Shown here in pieces: positions 5,357-36,536 of a DNA stretch of 64,000 nucleotides (within the stretch, counting starts at the first letter, position 1; each line of letters opens with the position of its first letter). The translations under genes and the position numbers were made by a program. The notes beneath the pieces are model-generated. The model was given only the letters and a program-made list of their open reading frames with translations. It was not told the DNA's origin and did not search any database. This DNA is from Lentinula raphanica (Eukaryota; Basidiomycota; Agaricomycetes; Agaricales; Omphalotaceae). The stretch spans positions 186,001-250,000 of the forward strand of contig JANVFP010000035.1 in assembly GCA_027919835.1 (NCBI GenBank), given 5' to 3'.

Positions 5357-5421
5357 CCGAGAATTTGGCCGGACTCCGGGCTATTCATTCTGGGATTTTC
5401 GGTATTGTTTCCGGTGATGAC
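5327..5421 (+). repeat. Terminal inverted repeat, left (AK copy a)
   Basis: 95 bp, matching the reverse complement of 10836-10930 with two mismatches. It begins TACCGCAAGCGGGAG and contains the short inverted repeats CCGC-AA-GCGG at the tip and CCGGA-C-TCCGG internally. Confidence 0.92.
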
Positions 5422-5500
5422 AAACACTGAATAACTTGGTCTAGACAGGGCTATATGTCAACGTAGTTTGACAACGTTTATTTGCCCTCTTGCATTCCTT

Positions 5501-5768
5501 CTTCCTAGACACTCATGGTCTCCGGACCAGGTGCTTGCTCATGCATGGGCGCAGGTGTCATTTCCTCCTTCCTAGACACTCATGGTCTCCGGACTAGGTG
5601 CTTGCTCATGCATGGGCGCAGGTGTCATTTCCTCCTTCCTAGACACTCATGGTCTCCGGACTAGGTGCTTGCTCATGCATGGGCGCAGGTGTCATTTCCT
5701 CCTTCCTAGACACTCATGGTCCCCGGACTAGGTGCTTGCTCATGCATGGGCGCAGGTGTCATTTCTCA
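5501..5768. repeat. Minisatellite, 4 x 67 bp (AK copy a)
   Basis: Four nearly identical 67-bp units start at 5501, 5568, 5635 and 5702. Each contains CCTAGACACTCATGGT and CATGCATGGGCGCAGG. The array lies between the left terminal repeat and the kinase start, and recurs in every full-length copy of the element. Short reading frames across it are artefacts of the repeat. Confidence 0.95.
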
Positions 5769-5914
5769 TTCCAACTCGCATATTCACTGCCTTACTACCT
5801 GCTGTATAAACCTAATATGTTCGTGGCGGCCTCATCCATCGCCTGCAATGAATCTTAAAGAATGCACCAAAAGACTTGTTGCTGTAATACTGAGGACATC
5901 GGCTGTCTTAGAGG

Positions 5915-5932
5915 TTGACCGGTACCGGTCAA
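5915..5932. promoter_or_regulatory. 18-bp perfect palindrome upstream of the kinase
   Basis: TTGACCGGTACCGGTCAA is its own reverse complement and lies 108 bp before the kinase ATG. A dimeric DNA-binding protein is the natural reader of such a site, but none is identified. It is conserved in all full-length copies. Confidence 0.5.
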
Positions 5933-6039
5933 AGCTTGCCGACGTTGTTCAATGTTGACCCTGAATGTTGAACACGGAGAATTGAAAGTGCATCGCTGTT
6001 TCATTCTTGTCCTTCACTCTATCCTTTCTTCTCATTTTC

Positions 6040-8492
6040 ATGGATGGAGCTGCCCTTGAGGCCTCTATCACTGATGCTCAGACAGCATATTGTGAGCGGT
6101 GCTCTAAACCACTTCAACCTGCTCAGAAGGCCCTATTTGTGAGATCTGCAACACGAGGGAACCGCAGAGTGTGCGTTGACTGCTACAAACATTATGAGAC
6201 GAAGAAGAAGCAGCCATCTTTGTCTACTGCAGGCCGTGAGTTCCATGCCTCCATGCTAATGCTGTCCGCTCATCCGCTATCTGATGACTTCAGGCTCCAC
6301 TTTAACTCAAAGTTCAAGTCAGTCAACACCAATAGGTATGGATATAAGGGAAAATGTGAACCGGGCACAGAGAGGAGGTATGTACTCATATGCTTATATA
6401 TGTCTACTGAACCTAATGCGTGACGCGCAATGTGTGTTAGAGTTCGAAGGCACTAAAATCGTCAAAGCAATTTCAAGTCGCAAGACCTTGGCGCCACTGC
6501 CGCCGAACATGCCTTCGACTCACAAGCTCCCATTTCCTGAACATCTCCGCTCTCGTCTCAGCGGCACTCTGGGTTACAACGAAGCCCATGACCTATACAA
6601 GCAATGTCAGCAGTTCTATCACGAGCGAGCAATGTCAGCTGGATATACCGAGTTCATCACCTTGCATGCCGCAGTATGTCACGTATCGACAAATACGAAA
6701 TTCAAAGCTGTTGGGGTATGTGACTCTTGCTATGGCTGAATGCTTGTTTTTATAACAATTATCCATCCAGGATGTTCTAGCTGTGATACCCCATATCAGT
6801 CCTCATATCGGCTGTCATGATCTTCACTCCATCCTCTACATGTACCTCCTTCCAAAATGGCTGAAATATTCTCGTAACGTCAAACTTCTCATATCAGATA
6901 CAACGCTAGCAAATGATCAGCATGCCGACATTCTTCCCCGGATTCCGGACATCAATGCTATCAAAGACAAGTGCTTTGTCTCGAAAGGACCGAAGCGAGC
7001 TCAAACCATCGTCACAAAGCCCTTAAAGTTATTCCTTCATGTCGACTCTCAGTTGGTTGGGGAAGCCGAGTTCCGCCGTTTGCAGTACAGTGAGCAGGAT
7101 GCACCCGAAGTCAGTGCGACATTGACCCATGTCTGTAATTTGTTCATAGTTTTGATTCGAGGAGAGTGTTACTGATACCTGTTCATTTCAGATGCAGATG
7201 GCGTCGGTATCAACAAGCATGACTCAATCGAAACCAAAACGGAAGCGCTCCGTCAAAGACTCAGCTACTCACAAACTTATGTCCATTTCCGAGTCTGAGA
7301 GTGATGACAACTACACTCCAGTGACAAAGAAAACCAAGCGCGACATATGTGAAACTGCTCTGGTATGTCTTTCAATATTGAACATTACATACATTTCAAA
7401 TGACATGCGTCTTCAAGAGTATCAATGAAACACATGGTCGTCCTCCAGCCACAGTCTTCCGTCCTGTCTCGATGCCTGAGCCCCTCAGTCCTGGTGTGAT
7501 TCGCTCGGTACTAAGCCAGCAGAGTATCTCACGAGCAAGGTCTAAACTCAGTATGTTTTGTCCAATATTTCATTGCTTGTTTTCAAACTCACTCTTTCTT
7601 AGTGACATTGTCGTGCACGGTCTATCCTCTTCCTCGATGGTCATGGTCGGAGCTTGTAAAGGAGCCCGTCAAGTGCCAAGATCTTCGTGCCAATTTCGAA
7701 GGAAAAGAACTCAGTGTGACACTCGACACAAATCAAAAATCACGCCAGGGTTCATTTAAGATGGCCCTTACTGATTGTGTCACTTCCGAAGTGATTGTTG
7801 GTGCTTCCACTAGTGTCTGCCTCAAACGCTGCTTCATCCGGAGCTCAGATGGAGGAGTCGCACAGTTACCAGAAGATCGACAATATCACGAACTTTCAAT
7901 CGAACTGAATTGCATCCTGTGGGCAAAGGTACTTCTTGACCTTGTTTATGCCTTCATGTCACAAGTCGACGCCATGCGCTGCTCACAACCACGATTTGCT
8001 GTCCCGCGACTCCGTTTTGTGGATGCCGCATTAGTCATTGCCAGGCGAGAGGATCATGAGGAGTTTTACATGATGGAGGAATGTATTGGCGGGGATGGCT
8101 GTAACGATTGGCCATTCCTCAAATACATTTGCAACAATTCGGCGCACCCTATTCTGGTTGATACTACCTCTCCGCGTGCATCTGAGAAGAATCTCTGCGC
8201 ACGTTTTCTTGCCTTTGCTCAGCATGTCCAGTATGTTCACACAGCCAAGCTCGCCTTTACTAGTGATTTCCAGGGTGCTGGTGACTTGTTGACAGACCCC
8301 CAAATCATTACCCACCCGTGCGTATCTATTTCTGGAACTAAACTCATGTCTAATGTCCTTACTCTCAGTGTACTTGGAAAGCAACTCTTCGCCCGTGGAA
8401 ATGTTGCTTTTGACACTCTACTGGAAACTCATGAGTGCAAGGGTAATGAATTTTGCGAATATTACATGCCATCTCGTGAGGACTTCACTTGA
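6040..8492 (+). CDS. Alpha-type protein kinase with N-terminal zinc motif (AK copy a)
   Basis: Predicted atypical (alpha-family) protein kinase, a Ser/Thr kinase fold unrelated in sequence to conventional kinases. The ATG at 6040 is preferred because the frame further upstream lacks an ATG. Exon 1 carries a Cys motif (CERC, then VCVDCYKHY) common in basidiomycete alpha-kinases. A basic, Ser-rich linker follows (KPKRKRSVKD). The kinase domain lies at about 7600-8480: a candidate ATP-binding Lys in VCLKRCF, Glu pair in MMEECIGG, catalytic DFQG, LTDPQI, a Gly-Asn motif (FARGNVAF) and the zinc-site HECKGNEFC. Introns lie near 6379-6440, 6716-6770, 7130-7191, 7363-7418, 7551-7602 and 8320-8370; the last is a multiple of three and has no stop. 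The gene is cargo inside a transposon. Substrate unknown. Confidence 0.85.
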
Positions 8493-8887
8493 AATACCTG
8501 AACAATGATTTCCTTTCATCTTCTGCTATTGATATGATATATTATTTATATATTCATGCCACGCTCATTAATCTTTGCAAGCTTCTATCTCATATCCATT
8601 CATTCCAAACCTTACATTCCTGGCTTCTCACTCATTCTCGTATCACTCGTTACAATTCTACTCTCAGAGTCTATACCCTTCACTTTATCATTTTATCTGA
8701 TCTATTAATGGTACTCTTCCTCCGAGTTCTTAATACTCTGTTTCGTAATAATATCTGATATTATTTATCAATTTGTGTCTACACAGTCAGGCTTCTACCA
8801 CTAAGATCAAGAGAAGTATGCAAAAGAGTCTTACAGATACGTGGATCATAGTGTCAAATTTTGGTGTGAGTATGATTACATCTGAGC
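8493..8887. terminator. Intergenic strip between the two convergent AK genes
   Basis: AT-rich, 395 bp, without a convincing gene; the 89-codon frame at 8489-8758 has no recognisable domain. At 8747-8765 lies a 19-bp palindrome, AATAATATCTGATATTATT. Because kinase and transposase converge here, the strip must hold both 3' ends. The palindrome is a candidate for a shared termination or processing signal, by position only. Confidence 0.35.
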
Positions 8888-10687
8888 TCATGGTAACAGT
8901 GAATTAGCAACCTCTTTTTCGGACTCATCTGTGAAATCCGAAACATCAAGCACCAGATCGGAGCTGTCATCACCACTACCACTATCTTCTTCATCTGTAA
9001 AATCAACTACAAGATAGTTTTCACTATCATGTCGGAAAAATGGATCATTGATTTCTTCAGCAGTTAGTCCCTCCTGACCAATAACTTTTCCATTATATCG
9101 CAACTCTTGCTGTCCTGGCATGAGATCAACCACCTCGGAATCTATCCGTTGATCCTCTTTTGCAATCTCTTCAACTTCTCTGCTGAGCAAAGGATCATTC
9201 GCAGTGGCCGAGTGGAACAAAGCAAGCAATTGACTGTACACAGTCCAGAATGACTCCATAGTGATATCGGGAGAACCTAGTTCCTGTATCAGGAAATAGT
9301 TTGCTTGTCGGTTGAATTCAGGTGGTGTGAGCTGAAAGACAGGATGGTCTGCAGGGGTATATTTGATTTCCATTTCATGAAGGAGTTCTTCGGAAACACC
9401 AATCTTTTAAAAAGCTAAGTGGATTAAACAATACAACAGTGATGCAGTAACATACCTTGAAGCTTACAGCTCCATAGCGGTGTGGAAACTTTTGGATGAG
9501 AGCAGGAATACCATTCGGTAACACTTTAGTACGATCTGCTCTTGGCTTAGAGTGATTTCGCCGATTCATCCATGCATCACATTCACGCTGCATGAACGGT
9601 ATAGCAATCTGGCGGAAAACTAGACTACAAGTGAAAATTCTTAAATGAGGAAATATTTGATTGTTAACTTTACTGACCATTCTAGGTTGTTGTCAGGATC
9701 ATATAAGCCAGAAAGAAGGCCTTCGTTGAAAAGCTTTTCAAAGCCTGGAGCGAAGTCGCGCCTATATACGGACCAGTTGATTTCTGACTTGATATTCTTC
9801 TTTTTACGCATGAACCGGTGCTGAAGGGTACCACGAAGATTGGGGTCGAGAGATTGTCTGATTTCAGTATGCATATTGGCGATCCCGAAATTTTCAGTTC
9901 CTGGATCACTCATCATAGTGAGTGGAATATACGCTACATATTATCAGTCTAGGAATGTTCATGTAGAAATCACACATACCAGCACACTGTGCATCACCTT
10001 CTTTGCGAAAAGCCTCAAGGTAGTAGCTATTGATCAAGATGGGATTCTTGTTGGTCCACCAACACTTCAGCCAGTGGTTATAGCCACTGAAAGGATCAAT
10101 AGCATTGTGAAACCGCAAACCAAATCGCATGAATTTATCATGCTGATCAATGCAAACCATATCATGCACTCCAGCAGCATAGTATATACGACGCTTGAAT
10201 TTATTGCCACGCCGAGCAGCAACTGCCTCAGGCTCAATCTTACGAAGAACTTGAAGAATTAGCTGCCTATCATTGCAATTAGACTCCATGAAAAATCATG
10301 AATCCAAAGGAATTCACCGTGGTGCTTTCACTCCATATTCCAAGCTCAACATGATCCGCACACCATCTGCACCTTTTGTTGGAAATCGCTGCTTGATCTT
10401 CTCGATCCATGGGCGGATCGATTCCTCATCGTGATTTTGCTTTCGGGTTGAAAGGTAACCCCACTCTTTCAGCCATATCCGGTACGTGAAAACACTGTGG
10501 AGTGTATTTTATCAATGAAGAAGATATATATCATGAGATTGTCATCAATAGATACGGACCTGAGGCCATAAGTGTCAGTATCATAGTATTCCTTCAAGAT
10601 TTCAACAGCTTCTGTGTCCGCAACTGATAATCTCCATAGCTGCTCGATAATGTGTTTCAAAGCTTCCTTTGGTGCTACAAACAACAT
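8888..10687 (-). CDS. Integrase-core DDE transposase, IS3EU-like (AK copy a)
   Basis: Presumed transposase that cuts and joins the AK element. A helical N-terminal region (APKEALKHIIEQLWRLS, later EYGVKAPR and VLRKIEPEAV) precedes an integrase-type core. The core has first Asp in CIDQHDKF, the conserved LDPFSG/WLK.WWTN stretch as IDPFSGYNHWLKCWWTNKN, second Asp in MMSDPGTEN, and third acidic residue in KSEINWSVYRRDF. The C-terminus is rich in Asp, Glu and Ser. At least five short introns are needed to join the pieces. The start is uncertain; an ATG at 10687 is in frame with the first conserved helix. TAC-type termini and a 6-bp duplication fit the IS3EU superfamily as I remember it. Length is about 500 residues. 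Confidence 0.8.
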
Positions 10688-10835
10688 AGATGTCAACTAT
10701 TATGAATGTATGCAGGAACCTCATTGAGCGTACGATTAGGCATATGCTGGTTGACTTTCTTCGGGGGCATGGTTGGTGGCTCGAAACAAGATGCTCCAGA
10801 TATAATACATACATAATGATATGTCACAAGAATGA

Positions 10836-10930
10836 GTCATCACCGGAAACAACACCGAAAATCCCGGAATGAATAGCCCGGAGTCCGGCCAAATTCTCGG
10901 TTAAGAGGCAACTAACTCCCGCTTGCGGTA
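10836..10930 (-). repeat. Terminal inverted repeat, right (AK copy a)
   Basis: Reverse complement of the left repeat with two differences. The outermost bases ..CTTGCGGTA abut GCATCG of the dehydrogenase-like gene. Confidence 0.92.
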
Positions 10931-14476: not shown

Positions 14477-14717
14477 TACCGCAAGCGGGAGTTAGTTGCC
14501 TCTTAACCGAGAATTTGCCGGACTCCGGGCTATTCATTCCGGGATTTTCGGTGTTGTTTCCGGTGATGACTCATTCTTGTGACATATCATTATGTATGTA
14601 TTATATCTGGAGCATCTTGTTTCGAGCCACCAACCATGCCCCCGAGAAAGTCAACCAGCATATGCCTAATCGTACGCTCAATGAGGTTCCTGCATACATT
14701 CATAATAGTTGACATCT

Positions 14718-16494
14718 ATGTTGTTTGTAGCACCAAAGGAAGCTTTGAAACACATTATCGAGCAGCTATGGAGATTATCAGTTGCGGACACAGAAGCTGT
14801 TGAAATCTTGAAGGAATACTATGATACTGACACTTATGGCCTCAGGTCCGTATCTATTGATGACAATCTCATGATATATCTTCTTCATTGATAAAATACA
14901 CTCCACAGTGTTTTCACGTACCGGATATGGCTGAAAGAGTGGGTTACCTTTCAACCCGAAAGCAAAATCACGATGAGGATCGATCCGCCATGGATCGAGA
15001 AGATCAAGCAGCGATTTCCAACAAAAGGTGCAGATGGTGTGGCGGATCATGTTGAGCTTGGAATATGGAGTGAAAGCACCACGGTGAATTCCTTTGGATT
15101 CATGATTTTTCATGGAGTCTAATTGCAATGATAGGCAGCTAATTCTTCAAGTTCTTCGTAGATTGACCTGAGGCAGTTGCTGCTCGGCGTGGCAATAAAT
15201 TCAAGCGTCGTATATACTATGCTGCTGGAGTGCATGATATGGTTTGCATTGATCAGCATGATAAATTCATGCGATTTGGTTTGCGGTTCACAATGCTATT
15301 GATCCTTTCAGTGGCTATAACCACTGCTGAAGTGTTGGTGGACCAACAAGAATCCCATCTTGATCAATAGCTACTACCTTGAGGCTTTTCGCAAAGAAGG
15401 TGATGCACAGTGTGCTGGTATGTGTGATTTCTACATGAACTTCCTAGACTGATAATATGTAGCGTATATTCCACTCACTATGAGAGTGATCCAGGAACTG
15501 AAAATTTCGGATCGCCAATATGCATACTGAATCAGACAATCTCTCGACCCCAATCTTCGTGGTACCCTTCAGCACCGGTTCATGCGTAAAAAGAAGAATA
15601 TCAAGTCAGAAATCAACTGGTCCGTATATAGGCGCGACTTCGCTCCAGGCTTTGAAAAGCTTTTCAACGAAGGCCTTCTTTCTGGCTTATATGATCCTGA
15701 CAAACCTAGAATGGTCAGTAAAGTTACAATCAAATATTTCCTCATTTAAGAATTTTCACTTGTAGTCTAGTTTTCCGCCAGATTGCTATACCGTTCATGC
15801 AGCCGTGAATGTGATGCATGGATGAATCGGCGAAATCACTCTAAGCCAAGAGCAGATCGTACTAAAGTGTTACCGAATGGTATTCCTGCTCTCATCCAAA
15901 AGTTCCACACCGCTATGGAGCTGTAAGCTTCAAGGTATGTTACTGCATCACTGTTGTATTGTTTAATCCACTTAGCTTTTAAAAGATTGGTGTTTCCGAA
16001 GAACTCCTTCATGAAATGGAAACAAATATACCCCTGCAGACCATCCTGTCTTTCAGCTCACACACCTGAATTCAACCGACAAGCAAACTATTTCCTGATA
16101 CAGGAACTAGGTTCTCCCGATATCACTATGGAGTCATTCTGGACTGTGTACAGTCAATTGCTTGCTTTGTTCCACTCGGCCACTGCGAATGATCCTTTGC
16201 TCAGCAGAGAAGTTGAAGAGATTGCAAAAGAGGATCAACGGATAGATTCCGAGTGGTTGATCTCATGCCAGGACAGCAAGAGTTGCGATATAATGGAAAA
16301 GTTATTGGTCAGGAGGGACTAACTGCTGAAGAAATCAATGATCCATTTTTCCGACATGATAGTGAAACTATCTGTAGTTGATTTACAGATGAAGAAGATA
16401 GTGGTAGTGGTGATGACAGCTCCGATCTGGTGCTTGATGTTTCGGATTTCACAGATGAGTCCGAAAAAGAGGTTGCTAATTCACTGTTACCATG
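14718..16494 (+). pseudogene. Integrase-core DDE transposase, frameshifted copy (truncated AK copy 2)
   Basis: Same gene as 29914-31713 but broken by many one-base deletions, for example near 15285, 15325, 15440, 15484 and 15703, and an extra base near 15803. The three catalytic regions are recognisable only in separate frames. The damage is almost all loss of one base and stops abruptly near 16400, so poor consensus quality is a plausible cause. Confidence 0.8.
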
Positions 16495-16890
16495 AGCTCA
16501 GATGTAATCATACTCACACCAAAATTTGACACTATGATCCACATATCTGTAAGACTCTTTTGCATACTTCTCTTGATCTTAGTGGTAGAAGCCTGACTGT
16601 GTAGACACAAATTGATAAATAATATCAGATATTATTACGAAACAGAGTATTAAGAACTCGGAGGAAGAGTACCATTAATAGATCAGATAAAATGATAAAG
16701 TGAAGGGTATAGACTCTGAGAGTAGAATTGTAACGAGTGATACGAGAATGAGTGAGAAGCCAGGAATGTAAGGTTTGGAATGAATGGATATGAGATAGAA
16801 GCTTGCAAAGATTAATGAGCGTGGCATGAATATATAAATAATATATCATATCAATAGCAGAAGATGAAAGGAAATCATTGTTCAGGTATT

Positions 16891-17199
16891 TCAAGTGAAG
16901 TCCTCACGAGATGGCATGTAATATTCGCAAAATTCATTACCCTTGCACTCATGAGTTTCCAGTAGAGTGTCAAAAGCAACATTTCCACGGGCGAAGAGTT
17001 GCTTTCCAAGTACACTGAGAGTAAGGACATTAGACATGAGTTTAGTTCCAGAAATAGATACGCACGGGTGGGTAATGATTTGGGGGTCTGTCAACAAGTC
17101 ACCAGCACCCTGGAAATCACTAGTAAAGGCGAGCTTGGCTGTGTGAACATACTGGACATGCTGAGCAAAGGCAAGAAAACGTGCGCAGAGATTCTTCTC
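16891..17199 (-). pseudogene. Alpha-kinase gene, 3' fragment (copy 2)
   Basis: Same as 1641-1949, including the microhomology junction at its 5' side. The non-coding strip 16495-16890 matches the intergenic strip of the element. Confidence 0.85.
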
Positions 17200-19312: not shown

Positions 19313-20600
19313 CCTATGTTACGGAGGAACTGGATATGTTTGTAAGTTTCATAATTGACACTGATGCTCAATGTTGATTTAGAAAACAGTAGTCCAAAAT
19401 GGACCTCTTAATTCTGGAATAACTGCTACACTTTATGGGTGGGACTGGGCAAAGCATGATCGTTCAAGAAAAGGATTCAAAATTTATGATGCCTTTGATT
19501 TTGCTATTGCAGCCAATACCCTAATTGTAGCAGATGGATATCATGGAAACATAGGTCTTGCTCCCAGACAGTCAGTTATTCAGACTCATGCCACCACTGA
19601 AATTACAAGTATAGCTAATGGGTAATTATTGCAGAGGGGATGTACAAACCAAGAACAGCAGAGTTTGTTTCTTAATCTTGCTCAGTCTTGATATGTTATT
19701 GACTATTTGTTGAAATATTTCAGAACTTCCTTGCTTCAATGAGAGTAGCCCGACAAAATCAAGATGTAGGATCTTATTTGAAATTCGGAATTGTTCTCCA
19801 TAACTAATTCTGAATATGTACCCGCAGTGTTCTGCATTTATTATCCGGCTTGCCTATCCAGGACACTCGAACAACCATCAGAGTGAAACAATGCCAGTTC
19901 TTCATTGCAATGTAACATTTTTATGGTACTGATGAGTTTATAGTCGCAGTGTCATCTCCTTTGGTCATCAGTTTCCCTTTCAAGCACCTGATAACCCCGA
20001 TACTCACTTTAGCCCTCGGATTCCGACTGTTTCGCATACTAATAAGCGGCCCCTTTCTTGGACTGTCAAGCTTTTCAGAATTGGGATTCGAAAATATGGC
20101 ACAGAATTTGCATGGATTGATATGAGCAATGAACCTTCAGCTACTGGTCCGACTGGAAGTCGAAAAGGGATTGACATACTGATGGACACAGGTGTGTATA
20201 ATTAGCTTCAATCAAGAAAATTTGTTGTTACTCACTTGTGCTCATGTGTCTCTTACACAGGAAATCCATTGAGTGTTCTCCCTGACCATGTGTTGTCCAA
20301 GATCCAGTCAGATGACAAATGGCAGAGCCCAAAATCAAGTATCTCAACAGGTCAAAGAGCAAATGCCCTGTCTGAGATGCTCGTTGGCTTCGAATTCAAG
20401 GGGAGGTTCCAATGTGTGATGGTCGAGGTTCGTGCATTGGAGTTCTGTCTTGGCCTCCTCGAGTAGGGGCAGGAGATAGAGTGAATATAGAATACAACAA
20501 TATCAAGGGAACCGCAGAGAAAAACTATACCCTGGGTCAAGTGGGCTTTTCACTTCCTGTCATTCATGTCTACCGCAAGCGGGAGTTAGTTGCCTCTTAA
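19313..20600 (+). pseudogene. Aspartyl-protease-like gene, 3' half (unit 2 copy)
   Basis: Same as 4065-5356. The frame is additionally broken near 20396-20415 by loss of single bases in a stretch that reads FEFQGEGSNVVMVEV in the other copies. It ends inside the terminal repeat of the following AK element. Confidence 0.68.
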
Positions 20601-20743
20601 CCGAGAATTTGGCCGGACTCCGGCTATTCATTCTGGGATTTTCGGTATTGTTTCCGGTGATGACAAACACTGAATAACTTGGTCTAGACAGGGCTATATG
20701 TCAACGTAGTTTGACAACGTTTATTTGCCCTCTTGCATTCCTT

Positions 20744-20997
20744 CTTCCTAGACACTCATGGTCTCCGGACAGGTGCTTGCTCATGCATGGGCGCAGGTGT
20801 CATTTCCTCCTTCCTAGACACTCATGGTCTCCGGACTAGGTGCTTGCTCATGCATGGGCGCAGTGTCATTTCCTCCTTCCTAGACACTCATGGCTCGACT
20901 AGGTGCTTGCTCATGCATGGGCGCAGGTGTCATTCTCCTTCTAGACACTCATGGTCCGGACTGGTGCTTGCTCATGCATGGGCGCAGGTGTCATTTC
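20744..20997. repeat. Minisatellite, degraded 4 x 67 bp (AK copy b)
   Basis: The same four units as at 5501-5768, shortened by scattered one- and two-base losses to about 254 bp. Confidence 0.88.
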
Positions 20998-21269
20998 TCA
21001 TTCCAACTCGCATATTCACTGCCTTACTACCTGCTGTATAAACTAATATGTTCGTGGCGGCCTCATCCATCGCCTGCAATGAATCTTAAAGAATGCACCA
21101 AAAGACTTGTTGCTGTAATACTGAGGACATCGGCTGTCTTAGAGGTTGACCGGTACCGGTCAAAGCTTGCCGACGTTGTTCAATGTTGACCCTGAATGTT
21201 GAACACGGAGAATTGAAAGTGCATCGCTGTTTCATTCTGTCCTTCACTCTATCCTTTCTTCTCATTTTC

Positions 21270-23702
21270 ATGGATGGAGCTGCCCTTGAGGCCTCTATCA
21301 CTGATGCTCAGACAGCATATTGTGAGCGGTGCTCTAAACCACTTCAACCTGCTCAGAAGGCCCTATTTGTGAGATCTGCAACACGAGGGAACCGCAGAGT
21401 GTGCGTTGACTGCTACAAACATTATGAGACGAAGAAGAAGCAGCCATCTTTGTCTACTGCAGGCCGTGAGTTCCATGCCTCCATGCTAATGCTGTCCGCT
21501 CATCCGCTATCTGATGACTTCAGGCTCCACTTAACTCCAAAGTTCAAGTCAGTCACACCAATAGGTATGGATATAAGGGAAAATGTGAACCGGGCACAGA
21601 GAGGAGGTATGTACTCATATGCTTATATATGTCTACTGAACCTAATGCGTGACGCGCAATGTGTGTTAGAGTTCGAAGGCACTAAAATCGTCAAAGCAAT
21701 TTCAGTCGCAAGACCTTGGCGCCACTGCCGCCGAACATGCCTTCGACTCACAGCTCCCATTTCCTGAACATCTCCGCTCTCGTCTCAGCGGCACTCTGGT
21801 TACAACGAAGCCCATGACCTATACAAGCAATGTCAGCAGTTCTATCACGAGCGAGCAATGTCAGCTGGATATACCGAGTTCATCACCTTGCATGCCGCAG
21901 TATGTCACGTATCGACAAATACGAAATTCAAAGCTGTTGGGGTATGTGACTCTTGCTATGGCTGAATGCTTGTTTTTATAACAATTATCCATCCAGGATG
22001 TTCTAGCTGTGATACCCATATCAGTCCTCATATCGGCTGTCATGATCTTCACTCCATCCTCTACATGTACCTCCTTCCAAAATGGCGAAATATTCTCGTA
22101 ACGTCAAACTTCTCATATCAGATACAACGCTAGCAAATGATCAGCATGCCGACATTCCCCGGATTCCGGACATCAATGCTATCAAAGACAAGTGCTTTGT
22201 CTCGAAGGACCGAAGCGAGCTCAAACCATCGTCACAAAGCCCTTAAAGTTATTCCTTCATGTCGACTCTCAGTTGGTTGGGGAAGCCGAGTTCCGCCGTT
22301 TGCAGTACAGTGAGCAGGATGCACCCGAAGTCAGTGCGACATTGACCCATGTCTGTAATTGTTCATAGTTTTGATTCGAGGAGAGTGTTACTGATACCTG
22401 TTCATTTCAGATGCAGATGGCGTCGGTATCAACAAGCATGACTCAATCGAAACCAAAACGGAAGCGCTCCGTCAAAGACTCAGCTACTCACAAACTTATG
22501 TCCATTTCCGAGTCTGGAGTGATGACAACTACACTCCAGTGACAAAGAAAACCAAGCGCGACATATGTGAAACTGCTCTGGTATGTCTTTCAATATGAAC
22601 ATTACATACATTTCAAATGACATGCGTTCAAGAGTATCAATGAAACACATGGTCGTCCTCCAGCCACAGTCTTCCGTCCTGTCTCGATGCCTGAGCCCCT
22701 CAGTCCTGGTGTGATTCGCTCGGTACTAAGCCAGCAGAGTATCTCACGAGCAAGGTCTAAACTCAGTATGTTTTGTCCAATATTTCATTGCTTGTTTTCA
22801 AACTCACTCTTTCTTAGTGACATTGTCGTGCACGGTCTATCCTCTTCCTCGATGGTCATGGTCGGAGCTTGTAAAGGAGCCCGTCAAGTGCCAAGATCTT
22901 CGTGCCAATTTCGAAGGAAAAGAACTCAGTGTGACACTCGACACAAATCAAAAATCACGCCAGGGTTCATTTAAGATGGCCCTTACTGATTGTGTCACTT
23001 CCGAAGTGATTGTTGGTGCTTCCACTAGTGTCTGCCTCAAACGCTGCTTCATCCGGAGCTCAGATGGAGGAGTCGCACAGTTACCAGAAGATCGACAATA
23101 TCACGAACTTTCAATCGAACTGAATTGCATCCTGTGGGCAAAGGTACTTCTTGACCTTGTTTATGCCTTCATGTCACAAGTCGACGCCATGCGCTGCTCA
23201 CAACCACGATTTCTGTCCCGCGACTCCGTTTGTGGATGCCGCATTAGTCATTGCCAGGCGAGAGGATCATGAGGAGTTTTACATGATGGAGGAATGTATT
23301 GGCGGGATGGCTGTAACGATTGGCCATTCCTCAAATACATTTGCAACAATTGGCGCACCCTATTCTGGTTGATACTACCTCTCCGCGTGCATCTGAGAAG
23401 AATCTCTGCGCACGTTTTCTTGCCTTTGCTCAGCATGTCCAGTATGTTCACACAGCCAAGCTCGCCTTTACTAGTGATTTCCAGGGTGCTGGTGACTTGT
23501 TGACAGACCCCCAAATCATTACCCACCGTGCGTATCTATTTCTGGAACTAAACTCATGTCTAATGTCCTTACTCTCAGTGTACTTGGAAAGCAACTCTTC
23601 GCCCGTGGAAATGTTGCTTTTGACACTCTACTGGAAACTCATGAGTGCAAGGGTAATGAATTTTGCGAATATTACATGCCATCTCGTGAGGACTTCACTT
23701 GA
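21270..23702 (+). pseudogene. Alpha-kinase gene, frameshifted copy (AK copy b)
   Basis: Counterpart of 6040-8492 with small deletions, for example near 21532, 21555, 21705, 21799, 22014, 22086, 22157, 22206, 22516, 23213 and 23230. The zinc motif and the C-lobe motifs remain readable in pieces. If the losses are sequencing errors, the gene could be intact in reality. Confidence 0.75.
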
Positions 23703-24095
23703 AATACCTGAACAATGATTTCCTTTCATCTTCTGCTATTGATATGATATATTATTTATATATTCATGCCACGCTCATTAATCTTTGCAAGCTTCTATCT
23801 CATATCCATTCATTCCAAACCTTACATTCCTGGCTTCTCACTCATTCTCGTATCACTCGTTACAATTCTACTCTCAGAGTCTATACCCTTCACTTATCAT
23901 TTTATCTGATCTATTAATGTACTCTTCCTCCGAGTTCTTAATACTCTGTTTCGTAATAATATCTGATATTTTTATCAATTTGTGTCTACACAGTCAGGCT
24001 TCTACCACTAAGATCAAGAGAAGTATGCAAAAGAGTCTTACAGATACGTGGATCATAGTGTTCAAATTTTGGTGTGAGTATGATTACATCTGAGC

Positions 24096-25882
24096 TCATG
24101 GTAACAGTGAATTAGCAACCTCTTTTCGGACTCATCTGTGAAATCCGAACATCAGCACCAGATCGGAGCTGTCATCACCACTACCACTATCTCTTCATCT
24201 GTAAAATCAACTACAAGATAGTTTTCACTATCATGTCGGAAAAATGGATCATTGATTTCTTCAGCAGTTAGTCCCCTCCTGACCAATAACTTTTCCATTA
24301 TATCGCAACTCTTGCTGTCCTGGCATGAGATCAACCACCTCGGAATCTATCCGTTGATCCTCTTTTGCAATCTCTTCAACTTCTCTGCTGAGCAAAGGAT
24401 CATTCGCAGTGGCCGAGTGGAACAAAGCAAGCAATTGACTGTACACAGTCCAGAATGACTCCATAGTGATATCGGGAGAACCTAGTTCCTGTATCAGGAA
24501 ATAGTTTGCTTGTCGGTTGAATTCAGTGGTGTGAGCTGAAAGACAGGATGGTCTGCAGGGGTATATTTGATTTCCATTTCATGAAGGAGTTCTTCGGAAA
24601 CCAATCTTTTAAAAAGCTAAGTGGATTAAACAATACAACAGTGATGCAGTAACATACTTGAAGCTTACAGCTCCATAGCGGTGTGGAAACTTTTGGATGA
24701 GAGCAGGAATACCATTCGGTAACACTTTATACGATCTGCTCTTGGCTTAGAGTGATTCGCCGATTCATCCATGCATCACATTCACGCTGCATGAACGGTA
24801 TAAGCAATCTGGCGGAAAACTAGACTACAAGTGAAAATTCTTAAATGAGGAAATATTTGATTGTTAACTTTACTGACCATTCTAGGTTGTTGTCAGGATC
24901 ATTATAAGCCAGAAAGAAGGCCTTCGTTGAAAAGCTTTCAAAGCCTGGAGCGAAGTCGCGCCTATATACGGACCAGTTGATTTCTGACTTGATATTCTTC
25001 TTTTTACGCATGAACCGGTGCTGAAGGGTACCACGAAGATTGGGGTCGAGAGATTGTCTGATTTCAGTATGCATATTGGCGATCCCGAAATTTTCAGTTC
25101 CTGGATCACTCATCATAGTGAGTGGAATATACGCTACATATTATCAGTCTAGAATGTTCATGTAGAAATCACACATACCAGCACACTGTGCATCACCTTC
25201 TTTGCGAAAAGCCTCAAGGTAGTAGCTATTGATCAAGATGGGATTCTTGTTGGTCCACCAACACTTCAGCCAGTGGTTATAGCACTGAAAGGATCAATAG
25301 CATTGTGAAACCGCAAACCAAATCGCATGAATTTATCATGCTGATCAATGCAAACCATATCATGCACTCCAGCAGCATAGTATATACGACGCTTGAATTT
25401 ATTGCCACGCCGAGCAGCAACTGCCTCAGGCTCAATCTTACGAAGAACTTGAAGAATTAGCTGCCTATCATTGCAATTAGACTCCATGAAAAATCATGAA
25501 TCCAAAGGAATTCACCGTGGTGCTTTCACTCCATATTCCAAGCTCAACATGATCCGCACACCATCTGCACCTTTTGTTGGAATCGCTGCTTGATCTTCTC
25601 GATCCATGGCGGATCGATTCCTCATCGTGATTTTGCTTTCGGGTTGAAAGGTAACCCCACTCTTTCAGCCATATCCGGTACGTGAAAACACTGTGGAGTG
25701 TATTTTATCAATGAAGAAGATATATATCATGAGATTGTCATCAATAGATACGGACCTGAGGCCATAGTGTCAGTATCATAGTATTCCTTCAAGATTTCAA
25801 CAGCTTCTGTGTCCGCAACTGATAATCTCCATAGCTGCTCGATAATGTGTTTCAAAGCTTCCTTTGGTGCTACAAACAACAT
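24096..25882 (-). pseudogene. Integrase-core DDE transposase, frameshifted copy (AK copy b)
   Basis: Counterpart of 8888-10687 with one-base losses and a few one-base gains, for example near 24127, 24190, 24274, 24601, 24903 and 25283. Catalytic regions are recognisable in separate frames. Confidence 0.78.
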
Positions 25883-26122
25883 AGATGTCAACTATTATGA
25901 ATGTATGCAGGAACCTCATTGAGCGTACGATTAGGCATATGCTGGTTGACTTTCTTCGGGGCATGGTTGGTGGCTCGAAACAGATGCTCCAGATATAATA
26001 CATACATAATGATATGTCACAAGAATGAGTCATCACCGGAACAACACCGAAAATCCCGGAATGAATAGCCCGGAGTCCGGCCAAATTCTCGGTTAAGAGG
26101 CAACTAACTCCCGCTTGCGGTA

Positions 26123-29665: not shown

Positions 29666-29671
29666 GACATG
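29666..29671. repeat. Target-site duplication GACATG, left
   Basis: GACATG directly before the AK element. The same six bases follow its right end at 35275-35280. Sequence beyond the six differs. Confidence 0.9.
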
Positions 29672-29766
29672 TACCGCAAGCGGGAGTTAGTTGCCTCTTA
29701 ACCGAGAATTTGGCCGGACTCCGGGCTATTCATTCCGGGATTTTCGGTGTTGTTTCCGGTGATGAC
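29672..29766 (+). repeat. Terminal inverted repeat, left (AK copy c)
   Basis: 95 bp from TACCGCAAGC to GGTGATGAC. It matches the reverse complement of 35180-35274 except at two positions. Confidence 0.93.
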
Positions 29767-29913
29767 TCATTCTTGTGACATATCATTATGTATGTATTAT
29801 ATCTGGAGCATCTTGTTTCGAGCCACCAACCATGCCCCGAAGAAAGTCAACCAGCATATGCCTAATCGTACGCTCAATGAGGTTCCTGCATACATTCATA
29901 ATAGTTGACATCT

Positions 29914-31713
29914 ATGTTGTTTGTAGCACCAAAGGAAGCTTTGAAACACATTATCGAGCAGCTATGGAGATTATCAGTTGCGGACACAGAAGCTGTTGAA
30001 ATCTTGAAGGAATACTATGATACTGACACTTATGGCCTCAGGTCCGTATCTATTGATGACAATCTCATGATATATATCTTCTTCATTGATAAAATACACT
30101 CCACAGTGTTTTCACGTACCGGATATGGCTGAAAGAGTGGGGTTACCTTTCAACCCGAAAGCAAAATCACGATGAGGAATCGATCCGCCCATGGATCGAG
30201 AAGATCAAGCAGCGATTTCCAACAAAAGGTGCAGATGGTGTGCGGATCATGTTGAGCTTGGAATATGGAGTGAAAGCACCACGGTGAATTCCTTTGGATT
30301 CATGATTTTTCATGGAGTCTAATTGCAATGATAGGCAGCTAATTCTTCAAGTTCTTCGTAAGATTGAGCCTGAGGCAGTTGCTGCTCGGCGTGGCAATAA
30401 ATTCAAGCGTCGTATATACTATGCTGCTGGAGTGCATGATATGGTTTGCATTGATCAGCATGATAAATTCATGCGATTTGGTTTGCGGTTTCACAATGCT
30501 ATTGATCCTTTCAGTGGCTATAACCACTGGCTGAAGTGTTGGTGGACCAACAAGAATCCCATCTTGATCAATAGCTACTACCTTGAGGCTTTTCGCAAAG
30601 AAGGTGATGCACAGTGTGCTGGTATGTGTGATTTCTACATGAACATTCCTAGACTGATAATATGTAGCGTATATTCCACTCACTATGATGAGTGATCCAG
30701 GAACTGAAAATTTCGGGATCGCCAATATGCATACTGAAATCAGACAATCTCTCGACCCCAATCTTCGTGGTACCCTTCAGCACCGGTTCATGCGTAAAAA
30801 GAAGAATATCAAGTCAGAAATCAACTGGTCCGTATATAGGCGCGACTTCGCTCCAGGCTTTGAAAAGCTTTTCAACGAAGGCCTTCTTTCTGGCTTATAT
30901 GATCCTGACAACAACCTAGAATGGTCAGTAAAGTTAACAATCAAATATTTCCTCATTTAAGAATTTTCACTTGTAGTCTAGTTTTCCGCCAGATTGCTAT
31001 ACCGTTCATGCAGCGTGAATGTGATGCATGGATGAATCGGCGAAATCACTCTAAGCCAAGAGCAGATCGTACTAAAGTGTTACCGAATGGTATTCCTGCT
31101 CTCATCCAAAAGTTTCCACACCGCTATGGAGCTGTAAGCTTCAAGGTATGTTACTGCATCACTGTTGTATTGTTTAATCCACTTAGCTTTTTAAAAGATT
31201 GGTGTTTCCGAAGAACTCCTTCATGAAATGGAAATCAAATATACCCCTGCAGACCATCCTGTCTTTCAGCTCACACCACCTGAATTCAACCGACAAGCAA
31301 ACTATTTCCTGATACAGGAACTAGGTTCTCCCGATATCACTATGGAGTCATTCTGGACTGTGTACAGTCAATTGCTTGCTTTGTTCCACTCGGCCACTGC
31401 GAATGATCCTTTGCTCAGCAGAGAAGTTGAAGAGATTGCAAAAGAGGATCAACGGATAGATTCCGAGGTGGTTGATCTCATGCCAGGACAGCAAGAGTTG
31501 CGATATAATGGAAAAGTTATTGGTCAGGAGGGACTAACTGCTGAAGAAATCAATGATCCATTTTTCCGACATGATAGTGAAAACTATCTTGTAGTTGATT
31601 TTACAGATGAAGAAGATAGTGGTAGTGGTGATGACAGCTCCGATCTGGTGCTTGATGTTTCGGATTTCACAGATGAGTCCGAAAAAGAGGTTGCTAATTC
31701 ACTGTTACCATGA
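29914..31713 (+). CDS. Integrase-core DDE transposase, IS3EU-like (AK copy c)
   Basis: Intact and colinear with 8888-10687. Order: N-terminal helices, a 5' domain ending EYGVKAPR, VLRKIEPEAVAARRGN, then the DDE core (Asp in CIDQHDKF at about 30460, Asp in MMSDPGTEN at about 30693, acidic residue in KSEINW at about 30820). The conserved tail element (EELLHEMEIKYTPADHPVFQ) and an acidic end follow. Introns lie near 30043-30106, 30286-30336, 30622-30666, 30922-30975 and 31146-31198. The ATG at 29914 is chosen because it continues in frame into the first conserved helix; a short upstream exon is possible. One residue (Ile for Thr, near 31234) differs from the window-start copy. Confidence 0.82.
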
Positions 31714-32108
31714 GCTCAGATGTAATCATACTCACACCAAAATTTGACACTATGATCCACATATCTGTAAGACTCTTTTGCATACTTCTCTTGATCTTAG
31801 TGGTAGAAGCCTGACTGTGTAGACACAAATTGATAAATAATATCAGATATTATTACGAAACAGAGTATTAAGAACTCGGAGGAAGAGTACCATTAATAGA
31901 TCAGATAAAATGATAAAGTGAAGGGTATAGACTCTGAGAGTAGAATTGTAACGAGTGATACGAGAATGAGTGAGAAGCCAGGAATGTAAGGTTTGGAATG
32001 AATGGATATGAGATAGAAGCTTGCAAAGATTAATGAGCGTGGCATGAATATATAAATAATATATCATATCAATAGCAGAAGATGAAAGGAAATCATTGTT
32101 CAGGTATT
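31714..32108. terminator. Intergenic strip between convergent genes (AK copy c)
   Basis: Same 395-bp AT-rich strip as 8493-8887, with the 19-bp palindrome near its left third (about 31836-31854). No gene seen. Confidence 0.35.
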
Positions 32109-34561
32109 TCAAGTGAAGTCCTCACGAGATGGCATGTAATATTCGCAAAATTCATTACCCTTGCACTCATGAGTTTCCAGTAGAGTGTCAAAAGCAACAT
32201 TTCCACGGGCGAAGAGTTGCTTTCCAAGTACACTGAGAGTAAGGACATTAGACATGAGTTTAGTTCCAGAAATAGATACGCACGGGTGGGTAATGATTTG
32301 GGGGTCTGTCAACAAGTCACCAGCACCCTGGAAATCACTAGTAAAGGCGAGCTTGGCTGTGTGAACATACTGGACATGCTGAGCAAAGGCAAGAAAACGT
32401 GCGCAGAGATTCTTCTCAGATGCACGCGGAGAGGTAGTATCAACCAGAATAGGGTGCGCCGAATTGTTGCAAATGTATTTGAGGAATGGCCAATCGTTAC
32501 AGCCATCCCCGCCAATACATTCCTCCATCATGTAAAACTCCTCATGATCCTCTCGCCTGGCAATGACTAATGCGGCATCCACAAAACGGAGTCGCGGGAC
32601 AGCAAATCGTGGTTGTGAGCAGCGCATGGCGTCGACTTGTGACATGAAGGCATAAACAAGGTCAAGAAGTACCTTTGCCCACAGGATGCAATTCAGTTCG
32701 ATTGAAAGTTCGTGATATTGTCGATCTTCTGGTAACTGTGCGACTCCTCCATCTGAGCTCCGGATGAAGCAGCGTTTGAGGCAGACACTAGTGGAAGCAC
32801 CAACAATCACTTCGGAAGTGACACAATCAGTAAGGGCCATCTTAAATGAACCCTGGCGTGATTTTTGATTTGTGTCGAGTGTCACACTGAGTTCTTTTCC
32901 TTCGAAATTGGCACGAAGATCTTGGCACTTGACGGGCTCCTTTACAAGCTCCGACCATGACCATCGAGGAAGAGGATAGACCGTGCACGACAATGTCACT
33001 AAGAAAGAGTGAGTTTGAAAACAAGCAATGAAATATTGGACAAAACATACTGAGTTTAGACCTTGCTCGTGAGATACTCTGCTGGCTTAGTACCGAGCGA
33101 ATCACACCAGGACTGAGGGGCTCAGGCATCGAGACAGGACGGAAGACTGTGGCTGGAGGACGACCATGTGTTTCATTGATACTCTTGAAGACGCATGTCA
33201 TTTGAAATGTATGTAATGTTCAATATTGAAAGACATACCAGAGCAGTTTCACATATGTCGCGCTTGGTTTTCTTTGTCACTGGAGTGTAGTTGTCATCAC
33301 TCTCAGACTCGGAAATGGACATAAGTTTGTGAGTAGCTGAGTCTTTGACGGAGCGCTTCCGTTTTGGTTTCGATTGAGTCATGCTTGTTGATACCGACGC
33401 CATCTGCATCTGAAATGAACAGGTATCAGTAACACTCTCCTCGAATCAAAACTATGAACAAATTACAGACATGGGTCAATGTCGCACTGACTTCGGGTGC
33501 ATCCTGCTCACTGTACTGCAAACGGCGGAACTCGGCTTCCCCAACCAACTGAGAGTCGACATGAAGGAATAACTTTAAGGGCTTTGTGACGATGGTTTGA
33601 GCTCGCTTCGGTCCTTTCGAGACAAAGCACTTGTCTTTGATAGCATTGATGTCCGGAATCCGGGGAAGAATGTCGGCATGCTGATCATTTGCTAGCGTTG
33701 TATCTGATATGAGAAGTTTGACGTTACGAGAATATTTCAGCCATTTTGGAAGGAGGTACATGTAGAGGATGGAGTGAAGATCATGACAGCCGATATGAGG
33801 ACTGATATGGGGTATCACAGCTAGAACATCCTGGATGGATAATTGTTATAAAAACAAGCATTCAGCCATAGCAAGAGTCACATACCCCAACAGCTTTGAA
33901 TTTCGTATTTGTCGATACGTGACATACTGCGGCATGCAAGGTGATGAACTCGGTATATCCAGCTGACATTGCTCGCTCGTGATAGAACTGCTGACATTGC
34001 TTGTATAGGTCATGGGCTTCGTTGTAACCCAGAGTGCCGCTGAGACGAGAGCGGAGATGTTCAGGAAATGGGAGCTTGTGAGTCGAAGGCATGTTCGGCG
34101 GCAGTGGCGCCAAGGTCTTGCGACTTGAAATTGCTTTGACGATTTTAGTGCCTTCGAACTCTAACACACATTGCGCGTCACGCATTAGGTTCAGTAGACA
34201 TATATAAGCATATGAGTACATACCTCCTCTCTGTGCCCGGTTCACATTTTCCCTTATATCCATACCTATTGGTGTTGACTGACTTGAACTTTGAGTTAAA
34301 GTGGAGCCTGAAGTCATCAGATAGCGGATGAGCGGACAGCATTAGCATGGAGGCATGGAACTCACGGCCTGCAGTAGACAAAGATGGCTGCTTCTTCTTC
34401 GTCTCATAATGTTTGTAGCAGTCAACGCACACTCTGCGGTTCCCTCGTGTTGCAGATCTCACAAATAGGGCCTTCTGAGCAGGTTGAAGTGGTTTAGAGC
34501 ACCGCTCACAATATGCTGTCTGAGCATCAGTGATAGAGGCCTCAAGGGCAGCTCCATCCAT
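32109..34561 (-). CDS. Alpha-type protein kinase with N-terminal zinc motif (AK copy c)
   Basis: Intact and identical in layout to 6040-8492. ATG at 34561; exon 1 with CERC and VCVDCYKHY; kinase domain in the last two exons with VCLKRCF, MMEECIGG, DFQG, LTDPQI, GN and HECKGNEFC. All six introns keep GT..AG ends. Presence of the same undamaged gene in two separate element copies suggests it travels with the element and has been kept. Whether it serves the element (for example by phosphorylating transposase or host factors) or the fungus cannot be told from sequence. Confidence 0.86.
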
Positions 34562-34668
34562 GAGAATGAGAAGAAAGGATAGAGTGAAGGACAAGAATGA
34601 AACAGCGATGCACTTTCAATTCTCCGTGTTCAACATTCAGGGTCAACATTGAACAACGTCGGCAAGCT

Positions 34669-34686
34669 TTGACCGGTACCGGTCAA
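34669..34686. promoter_or_regulatory. 18-bp perfect palindrome upstream of the kinase (AK copy c)
   Basis: Same TTGACCGGTACCGGTCAA as at 5915-5932, again 108 bp before the kinase start. Confidence 0.5.
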
Positions 34687-34832
34687 CCTCTAAGACAGCC
34701 GATGTCCTCAGTATTACAGCAACAAGTCTTTTGGTGCATTCTTTAAGATTCATTGCAGGCGATGGATGAGGCCGCCACGAACATATTAGGTTTATACAGC
34801 AGGTAGTAAGGCAGTGAATATGCGAGTTGGAA

Positions 34833-35100
34833 TGAGAAATGACACCTGCGCCCATGCATGAGCAAGCACCTAGTCCGGGGACCATGAGTGTCTAGGAAGG
34901 AGGAAATGACACCTGCGCCCATGCATGAGCAAGCACCTAGTCCGGAGACCATGAGTGTCTAGGAAGGAGGAAATGACACCTGCGCCCATGCATGAGCAAG
35001 CACCTAGTCCGGAGACCATGAGTGTCTAGGAAGGAGGAAATGACACCTGCGCCCATGCATGAGCAAGCACCTGGTCCGGAGACCATGAGTGTCTAGGAAG
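34833..35100. repeat. Minisatellite, 4 x 67 bp (AK copy c)
   Basis: Reverse complement of 5501-5768, with four full units. It sits about 80 bp inside the right terminal repeat. Confidence 0.95.
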
Positions 35101-35179
35101 AAGGAATGCAAGAGGGCAAATAAACGTTGTCAAACTACGTTGACATATAGCCCTGTCTAGACCAAGTTATTCAGTGTTT

Positions 35180-35274
35180 GTCATCACCGGAAACAATACC
35201 GAAAATCCCAGAATGAATAGCCCGGAGTCCGGCCAAATTCTCGGTTAAGAGGCAACTAACTCCCGCTTGCGGTA
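35180..35274 (-). repeat. Terminal inverted repeat, right (AK copy c)
   Basis: Reverse complement of 29672-29766 with two differences. It is followed by GACATG (35275-35280), the right target-site duplication. Confidence 0.93.
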
Positions 35275-36536
35275 GACATGAATGACAGGAAGTGAAAAGC
35301 CCACTTGACCCAGGGTATAGTTTTTCTCTGCGGTTCCCTTGATATTGTTGTATTCTATATTCACTCTATCTCCTGCCCCTACTCGAGGAGGCCAAGACAG
35401 AAACTCCAATGCACGAACCTCGACCATCACTACATTGGAACCTTCCCCTTGGAATTCGAAGCCAACGAGCATCTCAGACAGGGCATTTGCTCTTTGACCT
35501 GTTGAGATACTTGATTTTGGGCTCTGCCATTTGTCATCTGACTGGATCTTGGACAACACATGGTCAGGGAGAACACTCAATGGATTTCCTGTGTAAGAGA
35601 CACATGAGCACAAGTGAGTAACAACAAATTTTCTTGATTGAAGCTAATTATACACACCTGTGTCCATCAGTATGTCAATCCCTTTTCGACTTCCAGTCGG
35701 ACCAGTAGCTGAAGGTTCATTGCTCATATCAATCCATGCAAATTCTGTGCCATATTTTCGAATCCCAATTCTGAAAAGCTTGACAGTCCAAGAAAGGGGC
35801 CGCTTATTAGTATGCGAAACAGTCGGAATCCGAGGGCTAAAGTGAGTATCGGGGTTATCAGGTGCTTGAAAGGGAAACTGATGACCAAAGGAGATGACAC
35901 TGCGACTATAAACTCATCAGTACCATAAAAATGTTACATTGCAATGAAGAACTGGCATTGTTTCACTCTGATGGTTGTTCGAGTGTCCTGGATAGGCAAG
36001 CCGGATAATAAATGCAGAACACTGCGGGTACATATTCAGAATTAGTTATGGAGAACAATTCCGAATTTCAAATAAGATCCTACATCTTGATTTTGTCGGG
36101 CTACTCTCATTGAAGCAAGGAAGTTCTGAAATATTTCAACAAATAGTCAATAACATATCAAGACTGAGCAAGATTAAGAAACAAACTCTGCTGTTCTTGG
36201 TTTGTACATCCCCTCTGCAATAATTACCCATTAGCTATACTTGTAATTTCAGTGGTGGCATGAGTCTGAATAACTGACTGTCTGGGAGCAAGACCTATGT
36301 TTCCATGATATCCATCTGCTACAATTAGGGTATTGGCTGCAATAGCAAAATCAAAGGCATCATAAATTTTGAATCCTTTTCTTGAACGATCATGCTTTGC
36401 CCAGTCCCACCCATAAAGTGTAGCAGTTATTCCAGAATTAAGAGGTCCATTTTGGACTACTGTTTTCTAAATCAACATTGAGCATCAGTGTCAATTATGA
36501 AACTTACAAACATATCCAGTTCCTCCGTAACATAGG
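35245..36536 (-). pseudogene. Aspartyl-protease-like gene, 3' half (intact locus)
   Basis: Second half of the gene whose first half is at 41889-43071. It carries the pepsin-like segment ADGYHGNIGLAP and the second catalytic motif LMDTGNPLSVLPD (split by an intron at 35590-35656). The end, GQVGFSLPVIHV, runs into the AK terminal repeat, which adds YRKRELVAS and a stop at 35245. At its 5' side copia-1 begins directly after CCTAT (36532-36536, minus strand). With copia-1 removed the frame would read through SPSRLLCYGGTG. Two different elements have thus hit this gene. Confidence 0.7.

Follow-up and report, generated by a model that had tools for sequence, protein, structure and literature searches.

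A DNA transposon with a transposase and an alpha-kinase gene, resembling IS3EU, in the mushroom Lentinula raphanica

The element and its ends

The window, a stretch of 64,000 nucleotides from Lentinula raphanica (C35), contains a complete DNA transposon of 5.6 kb, here called E3 (29672-35274). Its inverted repeats of 95 nt each are complementary at 98%, and the hexamer GACATG flanks the element on both sides (Table 1). Two genes lie tail to tail between the repeats, one for a DDE transposase and the other for an alpha-kinase. The original prediction for this locus had proposed the 95-bp repeats, the perfect 6-bp duplication, and an integrase-core transposase converging on an alpha-kinase gene. 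The repeats and the duplication are confirmed by the coordinates, and the two genes by exon models and Pfam matches. The motifs that it had named for the kinase (EE, DFQG, LTDP, GN, and HEC..C) are all present as well. A minisatellite with a 67-bp unit separates the kinase start from the right repeat. It is found in every full copy within the window, at 5495-5772 and 20738-21004 in addition to the array of E3.

Table 1. Coordinates of the element, its genes, and its copies in the window
Feature	Position	Strand	Remarks
Target site duplication, left	29666..29671	.	GACATG
Left terminal inverted repeat	29672..29766	+	95 bp, starts TACCGCAAGCGGGAG
DDE transposase (rva_4 integrase core)	29858..31713	+	7 exons, 509 aa; exons 29858-29867, 29927-30041, 30107-30283, 30335-30621, 30668-30923, 30977-31145, 31198-31713
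Alpha-kinase	32109..34561	-	6 exons, 722 aa (public model 685 aa); exons 34561-34220, 34158-33886, 33830-33471, 33409-33239, 33183-33051, 32998-32109
Minisatellite	34829..35106	.	67-bp unit, 4.2 copies
Right terminal inverted repeat	35180..35274	-	95 bp
Target site duplication, right	35275..35280	.	GACATG
E1, second full copy	5327..10930	-	inverted, within segmental duplication; L-end abuts GCATCG
E2, third copy	20571..26122	-	inverted; junction same as E1
Truncated left part of element copy	14477..17199	+	

The transposase

The reading frame of the transposase is free of stops, and the protein matches the rva_4 integrase core of Pfam (PF24764, E 4.9e-9). To judge from the alignment of 59 homologues, D141, D206, and E247 are the likely catalytic triad. 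Considering the homologues with a residue at the respective position, the first is conserved in 58 of 58 and the other two in 59 of 59 each. The first 130 residues do not contain a single cysteine, and an HHCC motif is absent. A search of solved structures with the transposase gave no match at E <= 1, and the NCBIfam matches of three transposases were all sub-threshold. At the C-terminus, the acidic tail (encoded at 31595-31713) contains an FTD-like motif followed by acidic residues, which recurs in many of 13 relatives and might be regarded as a candidate docking or phosphorylation site.

The alpha-kinase

The kinase frame is also free of stops. The boundary of the first intron is uncertain. 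The public gene model P0121, from a contig equal in length to C35, is listed in Table 1 beside ours. The protein matches the Alpha_kinase family PF02816 (E 5.2e-9; 36.9 bits against a curated cut-off of 21.3). It consists of an N-terminal CxxC..CxxC motif, a middle domain, a basic linker, and the C-terminal alpha-kinase domain. The N-terminal half, comprising the first three of these regions, has no Pfam match, and its CxxC..CxxC stretch weakly resembles ribosomal protein L24 (E 0.021). Several Lentinula kinases have basic clusters in the linker, a composition that would be compatible with nuclear entry.

In an alignment of nine kinase relatives, CLK, EE, and LTDPQI are found in all nine and DFQG in seven, the remaining two having NFQG and DYQG instead. 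The conserved lysine (K481 in P0121), the aspartate of DxQG (D628), and that of TDP (D638) are present, their presumed roles being those of the equivalent residues in MHCK A and TRPM7. Based on the same two kinases we take H614, H666, C668, and C674 as two-His two-Cys zinc-ligand candidates, the full set of which is not kept by every one of the nine relatives. In MHCK A, TRPM7, and eEF2K the HxC motif is followed by cysteines with C-x3-C spacing, whereas the spacing here is C-x5-C. The likeness to these three alpha-kinases is in the catalytic domain, as seen from PF02816 and from a weak sequence match to MHCK A (E 0.056), which covers the SHFTY, DIQG, TDPQI, and THKC stretch. The predicted structure of the kinase is poor (mean pLDDT 49, pTM 0.35). 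In a Foldseek search with this model nothing was found at E <= 0.001; alpha-kinases rank first (TRPM7 with E 0.017, eEF2K with E 0.038 and 0.083), and small ribosomal chains also appear among the fold matches of this poor model.

Copies within the window

Comparing the window with itself revealed a tandem duplication of 15.25 kb (99.3%) and an inverted duplication (99.97%). Across 5.6 kb, E1 differs from E3 by two substitutions and one 1-nt indel. In both E1 and E2 the R-end keeps the GACATG flank (as CATGTC), and the L-end abuts GCATCG with no matching duplication. A truncated left part of the element stands before each of the two; the one equivalent to that in Table 1 starts left of the window, at C35:185203. 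Because of these L-ends and the truncated left part before each copy, the window contains one insertion with its duplication (E3) and rearranged duplicates of it. We also considered E1, E2, and E3 as independent transpositions and rejected this based on the self-comparison, the junctions, and the near-identity of the copies. Being segmental duplicates, the two copies with an undamaged kinase that the original prediction had pointed out do not count as independent evidence. Because the copies are segmental duplicates, the window taken by itself would even be compatible with a host kinase gene that was trapped by chance between the repeats at a single locus.

Compared to E1, E2 has 19 substitutions as well as 42 gaps of a single base and 7 of 2-3 bases. 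In 38 of the 42 single-base gaps it is E2 that lacks the base, and homopolymers of at least three bases account for 17 of the 42. The broken frames of E2 may result from assembly error, and the single-base losses suggest a poor consensus in the duplicated region. The L-ends are joined precisely to GCATCG at 10930/10931 and 26122/26123. These junctions sit at the edge of the inverted and tandem duplications, and the partner break lies inside another element copy. That one junction falls exactly at the element terminus suggests an aberrant one-ended (alternative) transposition event.

Insertions elsewhere in the genome

The original prediction had proposed to search the genome with the 95-bp repeat and the transposase, and in Lentinula raphanica this search identified six further insertions (C2, C19, C27, C53, C1, and C20). 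Counting C35, six of the seven insertions have a perfect 6-bp duplication, namely GACATG (C35), TCCACT (C2), ATACTG (C27), GGACAG (C19), GATCCT (C1), and TGAGAG (C53). The duplication at C20 matches in five of six bases (GAAAGG/GTAAGG). Kinase sequence is present at all seven. It had been considered that other copies of the repeat family might never contain the kinase; the opposite was found. Units of transposase and kinase between terminal inverted repeats have thus inserted at several independent places, with duplication of six bases.

The elements differ in their ends and in their layout. The termini are TACCG..CGGTA in C35, C2, C19, C27, and C53, and a third family ends with TATAAAG (C20) and TATTGAG (C1). 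The two genes are oriented tail to tail in C35, C2, C27, and C19, and head to head in C20 and C1. Among C2, C27, and C19 the element sequence is 98.5-99.5% similar, and this similarity stops at the ends or at most four bases from them. Over the catalytic segment, the kinase of E3 is 54% identical to that of C2 and 38-39% to those of C20 and C1. A census of the terminal repeat allowing up to three mismatches found 16 ends, consisting of pairs at C2, C19, C27, and C53 and eight ends at C35; the control pattern gave none.

Chance trapping of a host gene is hard to reconcile with these data. Six insertions apart from that in the window, each with its own flanks and duplication, hold kinase sequence, and the kinase families of the genome have diverged to 38-54% and yet align over most of their length. 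The independent insertions led us to reject this explanation, to which we assign practically no probability. In turn, it is almost certain that the structure of this element family stably includes the kinase.

The link between the two genes also holds when the genome is searched from the side of the transposase. Transposase matches were found at C35, C2, C27, C19, C20, and C1, together with a weak one at C41 (21% identity). All of the former six loci contain an alpha-kinase; C41 does not. Because the kinase accompanies the transposase at each of these six loci, we suggest that it contributes to the working of the transposon and was not just trapped in it. As a control, we used the rva_4 domain, for which 87 matches at 51 other loci were obtained; this number is a lower bound, since the six kinase-bearing loci are themselves absent from these matches. 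None of the 51 loci has a kinase within 20 kb, the nearest being 60 kb away. For 12 of them, the comparison with homologues of the element transposase gave matches of 22-32% at seven and none at five, and the seven scored negative when spliced.

State of the kinase copies

Gene models of the kinase without stops were obtained at C35 (E3, with E1 nearly identical) and C27. The copies at C2, C19, C20, and C53 are damaged to various degrees, and the earlier description of the kinase as undamaged does not apply to the family as a whole. In C2 the kinase frame is interrupted by a single stop close to the N-terminus, the kinase of C19 has an internal deletion of about 490 bp, and that of C20 lacks about 740 bp of the N-terminal half of the C1 kinase. 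Both C1 and C20, seen in pieces, contain the catalytic exons as well as LTDPQI and the GNEFC stretch at the C-terminus. C53 has lost the 3' part of the gene including the kinase domain. The transposase frames of C2, C27, and C19 are all stop-free (start codons were not identified), and in C19 D141 is replaced by H.

The C53 copy, 1369 bp long and flanked by the TGAGAG duplication, has no transposase; both ends and the 5' part of the kinase are retained. This latter stretch may hold useful cis sequence, and it could be possible that the kinase plays no active part as a protein and is carried along, for example because its gene overlaps with signals of the right end. The damage to several kinase copies would fit such passive carriage, which we nevertheless regard as very unlikely because the codon constraint between C20 and C1 (see below) and the conserved motifs point to a function of the protein. 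The C53 copy (C53:67842-69210) seems to be located in or beside a TRA1-like gene. The public protein P0131, whose contig is as long as C53, joins the N-terminus of the kinase to a sequence with the precomputed domain PF20206 (Tra1 ring).

The state of the copies also bears on the possibility that the kinase restrains its own transposase, as a control of copy number, instead of helping it. The copy number is indeed low, with seven independent insertions in 49 Mb, and the combination of a kinase stop with a stop-free transposase frame in C2 implies that loss of the kinase is tolerated in at least one copy. However, copy number may be low for many other reasons, and we consider restraint to be unlikely.

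Selection and co-descent

A comparison of the rates of the kinase between element copies had been proposed with the original prediction. Between C20 and C1, dN is 0.047 and dS 0.58 over 211 codons of the catalytic segment, corresponding to a dN/dS of about 0.08 (pN/pS 0.11, bootstrap 0.07-0.19). For this one pair, the catalytic segment of the kinase has evolved under purifying selection. The transposases of the same two elements have a dS of 0.93 and a dN of 0.036 over 297 codons. Between families dS is saturated, and dN/dS was not used there. The young kinase copies show small counts of synonymous and non-synonymous differences, namely 6/4 for C2-C27, 2/8 for C27-C19, and 5/6 for C2-C19.

Trees were computed for 10 transposases and 8 kinases, the Lentinula sequences among them coming from four species. 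In both trees, E3 of L. raphanica groups with L. aciculospora (support 100/97 for the transposase and 83/85 for the kinase), L. edodes groups with L. lateritia, and the C2-type copies are placed together. Within the latter group, C2 and C27 are joined in one tree, and C27 and C19 in the other. A transposase from Rhodocollybia joins the group of E3 and L. aciculospora (88/89); the set does not contain a Rhodocollybia kinase. The L. edodes transposase P0006 and kinase P0123 each come from a contig 158,223 bases long, which hints at their co-location. No such hint is given by the pairs from L. aciculospora, L. lateritia, and Hygrophoropsis, whose contigs differ in length. Outside Lentinula, kinase matches were found in Hygrophoropsis (26% over 98%) and, weakly, in Peniophora (28% over 30%). 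Both are included in one of two homology results of nine proteins each; in the other they are part of the query alignment and yet not among the nine.

The kinase was introduced as cargo in the original prediction. Because it is under purifying selection and has diverged together with the transposase, this is probably the wrong word. Selection on the protein would fit a benefit to the element or to the host alike, and the kinase could instead be a true cargo, useful to the host or able to bias inheritance and kept by host selection, with the transposon profiting indirectly. In rusts the alpha-kinase family is reported to be highly expanded (PMC4469406), which would agree with a use by the host. 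Such a cargo would, however, not be expected to stay linked to a single lineage of transposases, in families that have diverged and with matching groups in the trees. The damaged copies at C2, C19, C20, and C53 fit the turnover of elements, and when the genome was searched with this kinase, all intact copies of its type were inside the elements; the remaining four alpha-kinases (two at C4, one each at C39 and C51) were not matched. We therefore judge a host-serving cargo to be improbable.

Relationship to known transposons

According to Kojima 2023 (PMC10045372), IS3EU/GingerRoot elements have TA..TA termini, usually 6-bp duplications, and a DDD/E transposase without HHCC motif. The Lentinula elements agree with this description in their duplications, their TA..TA termini, and their HHCC-less DDD/E integrase core. 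The element thus fits IS3EU by the features tested, and we liken it to IS3EU based on published descriptions. The 6-bp duplications that the original prediction had attributed to IS3EU are a published feature, perfect at six of the seven insertions here. The text of Kojima 2023 nowhere mentions a kinase.

The statement that IS3EU elements had not been described with a kinase did not hold. Kojima 2025 (PMC12730594) already reports for TET+ IS3EU families of rust fungi and Tuber indicum that a TET/JBP gene is located between the transposase and an alpha-kinase in all families. The pair of transposase and alpha-kinase is therefore already known from TET-bearing IS3EU elements of other fungi. Those elements resemble ours in the 6-bp duplications, the TA..TA type of ends, and the opposite orientation of the kinase with respect to the transposase. 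They differ in their hosts and in the TET/JBP gene, whereas the Lentinula elements are found in a mushroom and have no TET between the genes. None of the 28 Tet_JBP matches in the genome lies in the elements. The ends also differ, being TAYGG..CCRTA in the rust families (PMC12730594) and TACCG, TATAAAG (C20), and TATTGAG (C1) here. The same paper describes TET/JBP genes in Plavaka and in KDZ (Kyakuja-Dileera-Zisupton) elements, which are likewise fungal DNA transposons with an extra enzyme gene; these elements have other transposases, 8-bp duplications in the case of Zisupton, and a dioxygenase instead of a kinase. The mushroom families without TET, the two gene layouts, and the evidence for selection are new.

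In the open-licence literature on alpha-kinases in connection with transposons, fungi, or IS3EU, we found no further paper describing such an element. In other papers, PF02816 appears in a comparison table (PMC5295586) and one alpha-kinase gene is among the highly variable genes (PMC4164029).

Role of the kinase

In our opinion, the data are best explained by a two-gene cut-and-paste DNA transposon of the IS3EU type, in which the kinase is a functional gene of the element (probability roughly 0.55). Judging from its family, the DDE integrase-core transposase would bind the ends and excise the element, which would then be inserted by a 6-bp staggered cut. The kinase might enter the nucleus by means of its basic linker clusters and phosphorylate the transposase or a host chromatin or silencing protein. 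We regard such an action as quite possible, at somewhat less than even odds. Phosphorylation could then set the rate of transposition or relieve silencing, in parallel to what has been proposed for transposon-borne TET/JBP (PMC12730594).

More tentatively still, the alpha-kinase could belong to the core of IS3EU elements in fungi, acquired before the split of mushrooms and rusts, and be dedicated to working with the transposase, be it as activator, as restraint, or against silencing, with TET having been added later in some lineages. If this were true, a part of the alpha-kinase expansions in rusts and mushrooms would be this transposon. What had been mentioned only briefly in the literature is tested here with the Lentinula elements, in which the kinase stays with the transposase and bears signs of selection, all without TET. 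The two-gene system is also simple enough to ask how a transposon uses protein phosphorylation.

Alpha-kinases of the genome

Genome-wide, 12 alpha-kinase matches were obtained, which correspond to 11 gene copies, and seven of these copies are found at the six transposase loci. The suggestion of the original prediction that the element has spread alpha-kinases through such genomes holds in a limited sense, in that the repeats of these transposons enclose seven of the 11 copies found. The transposon would be an origin of alpha-kinases that are treated as ordinary genes in genome annotations. Two of the four remaining genes, at C39:285446 and C4:331407, share 99.4% identity across 2.6 kb or more, and perhaps belong to another mobile or duplicated unit.
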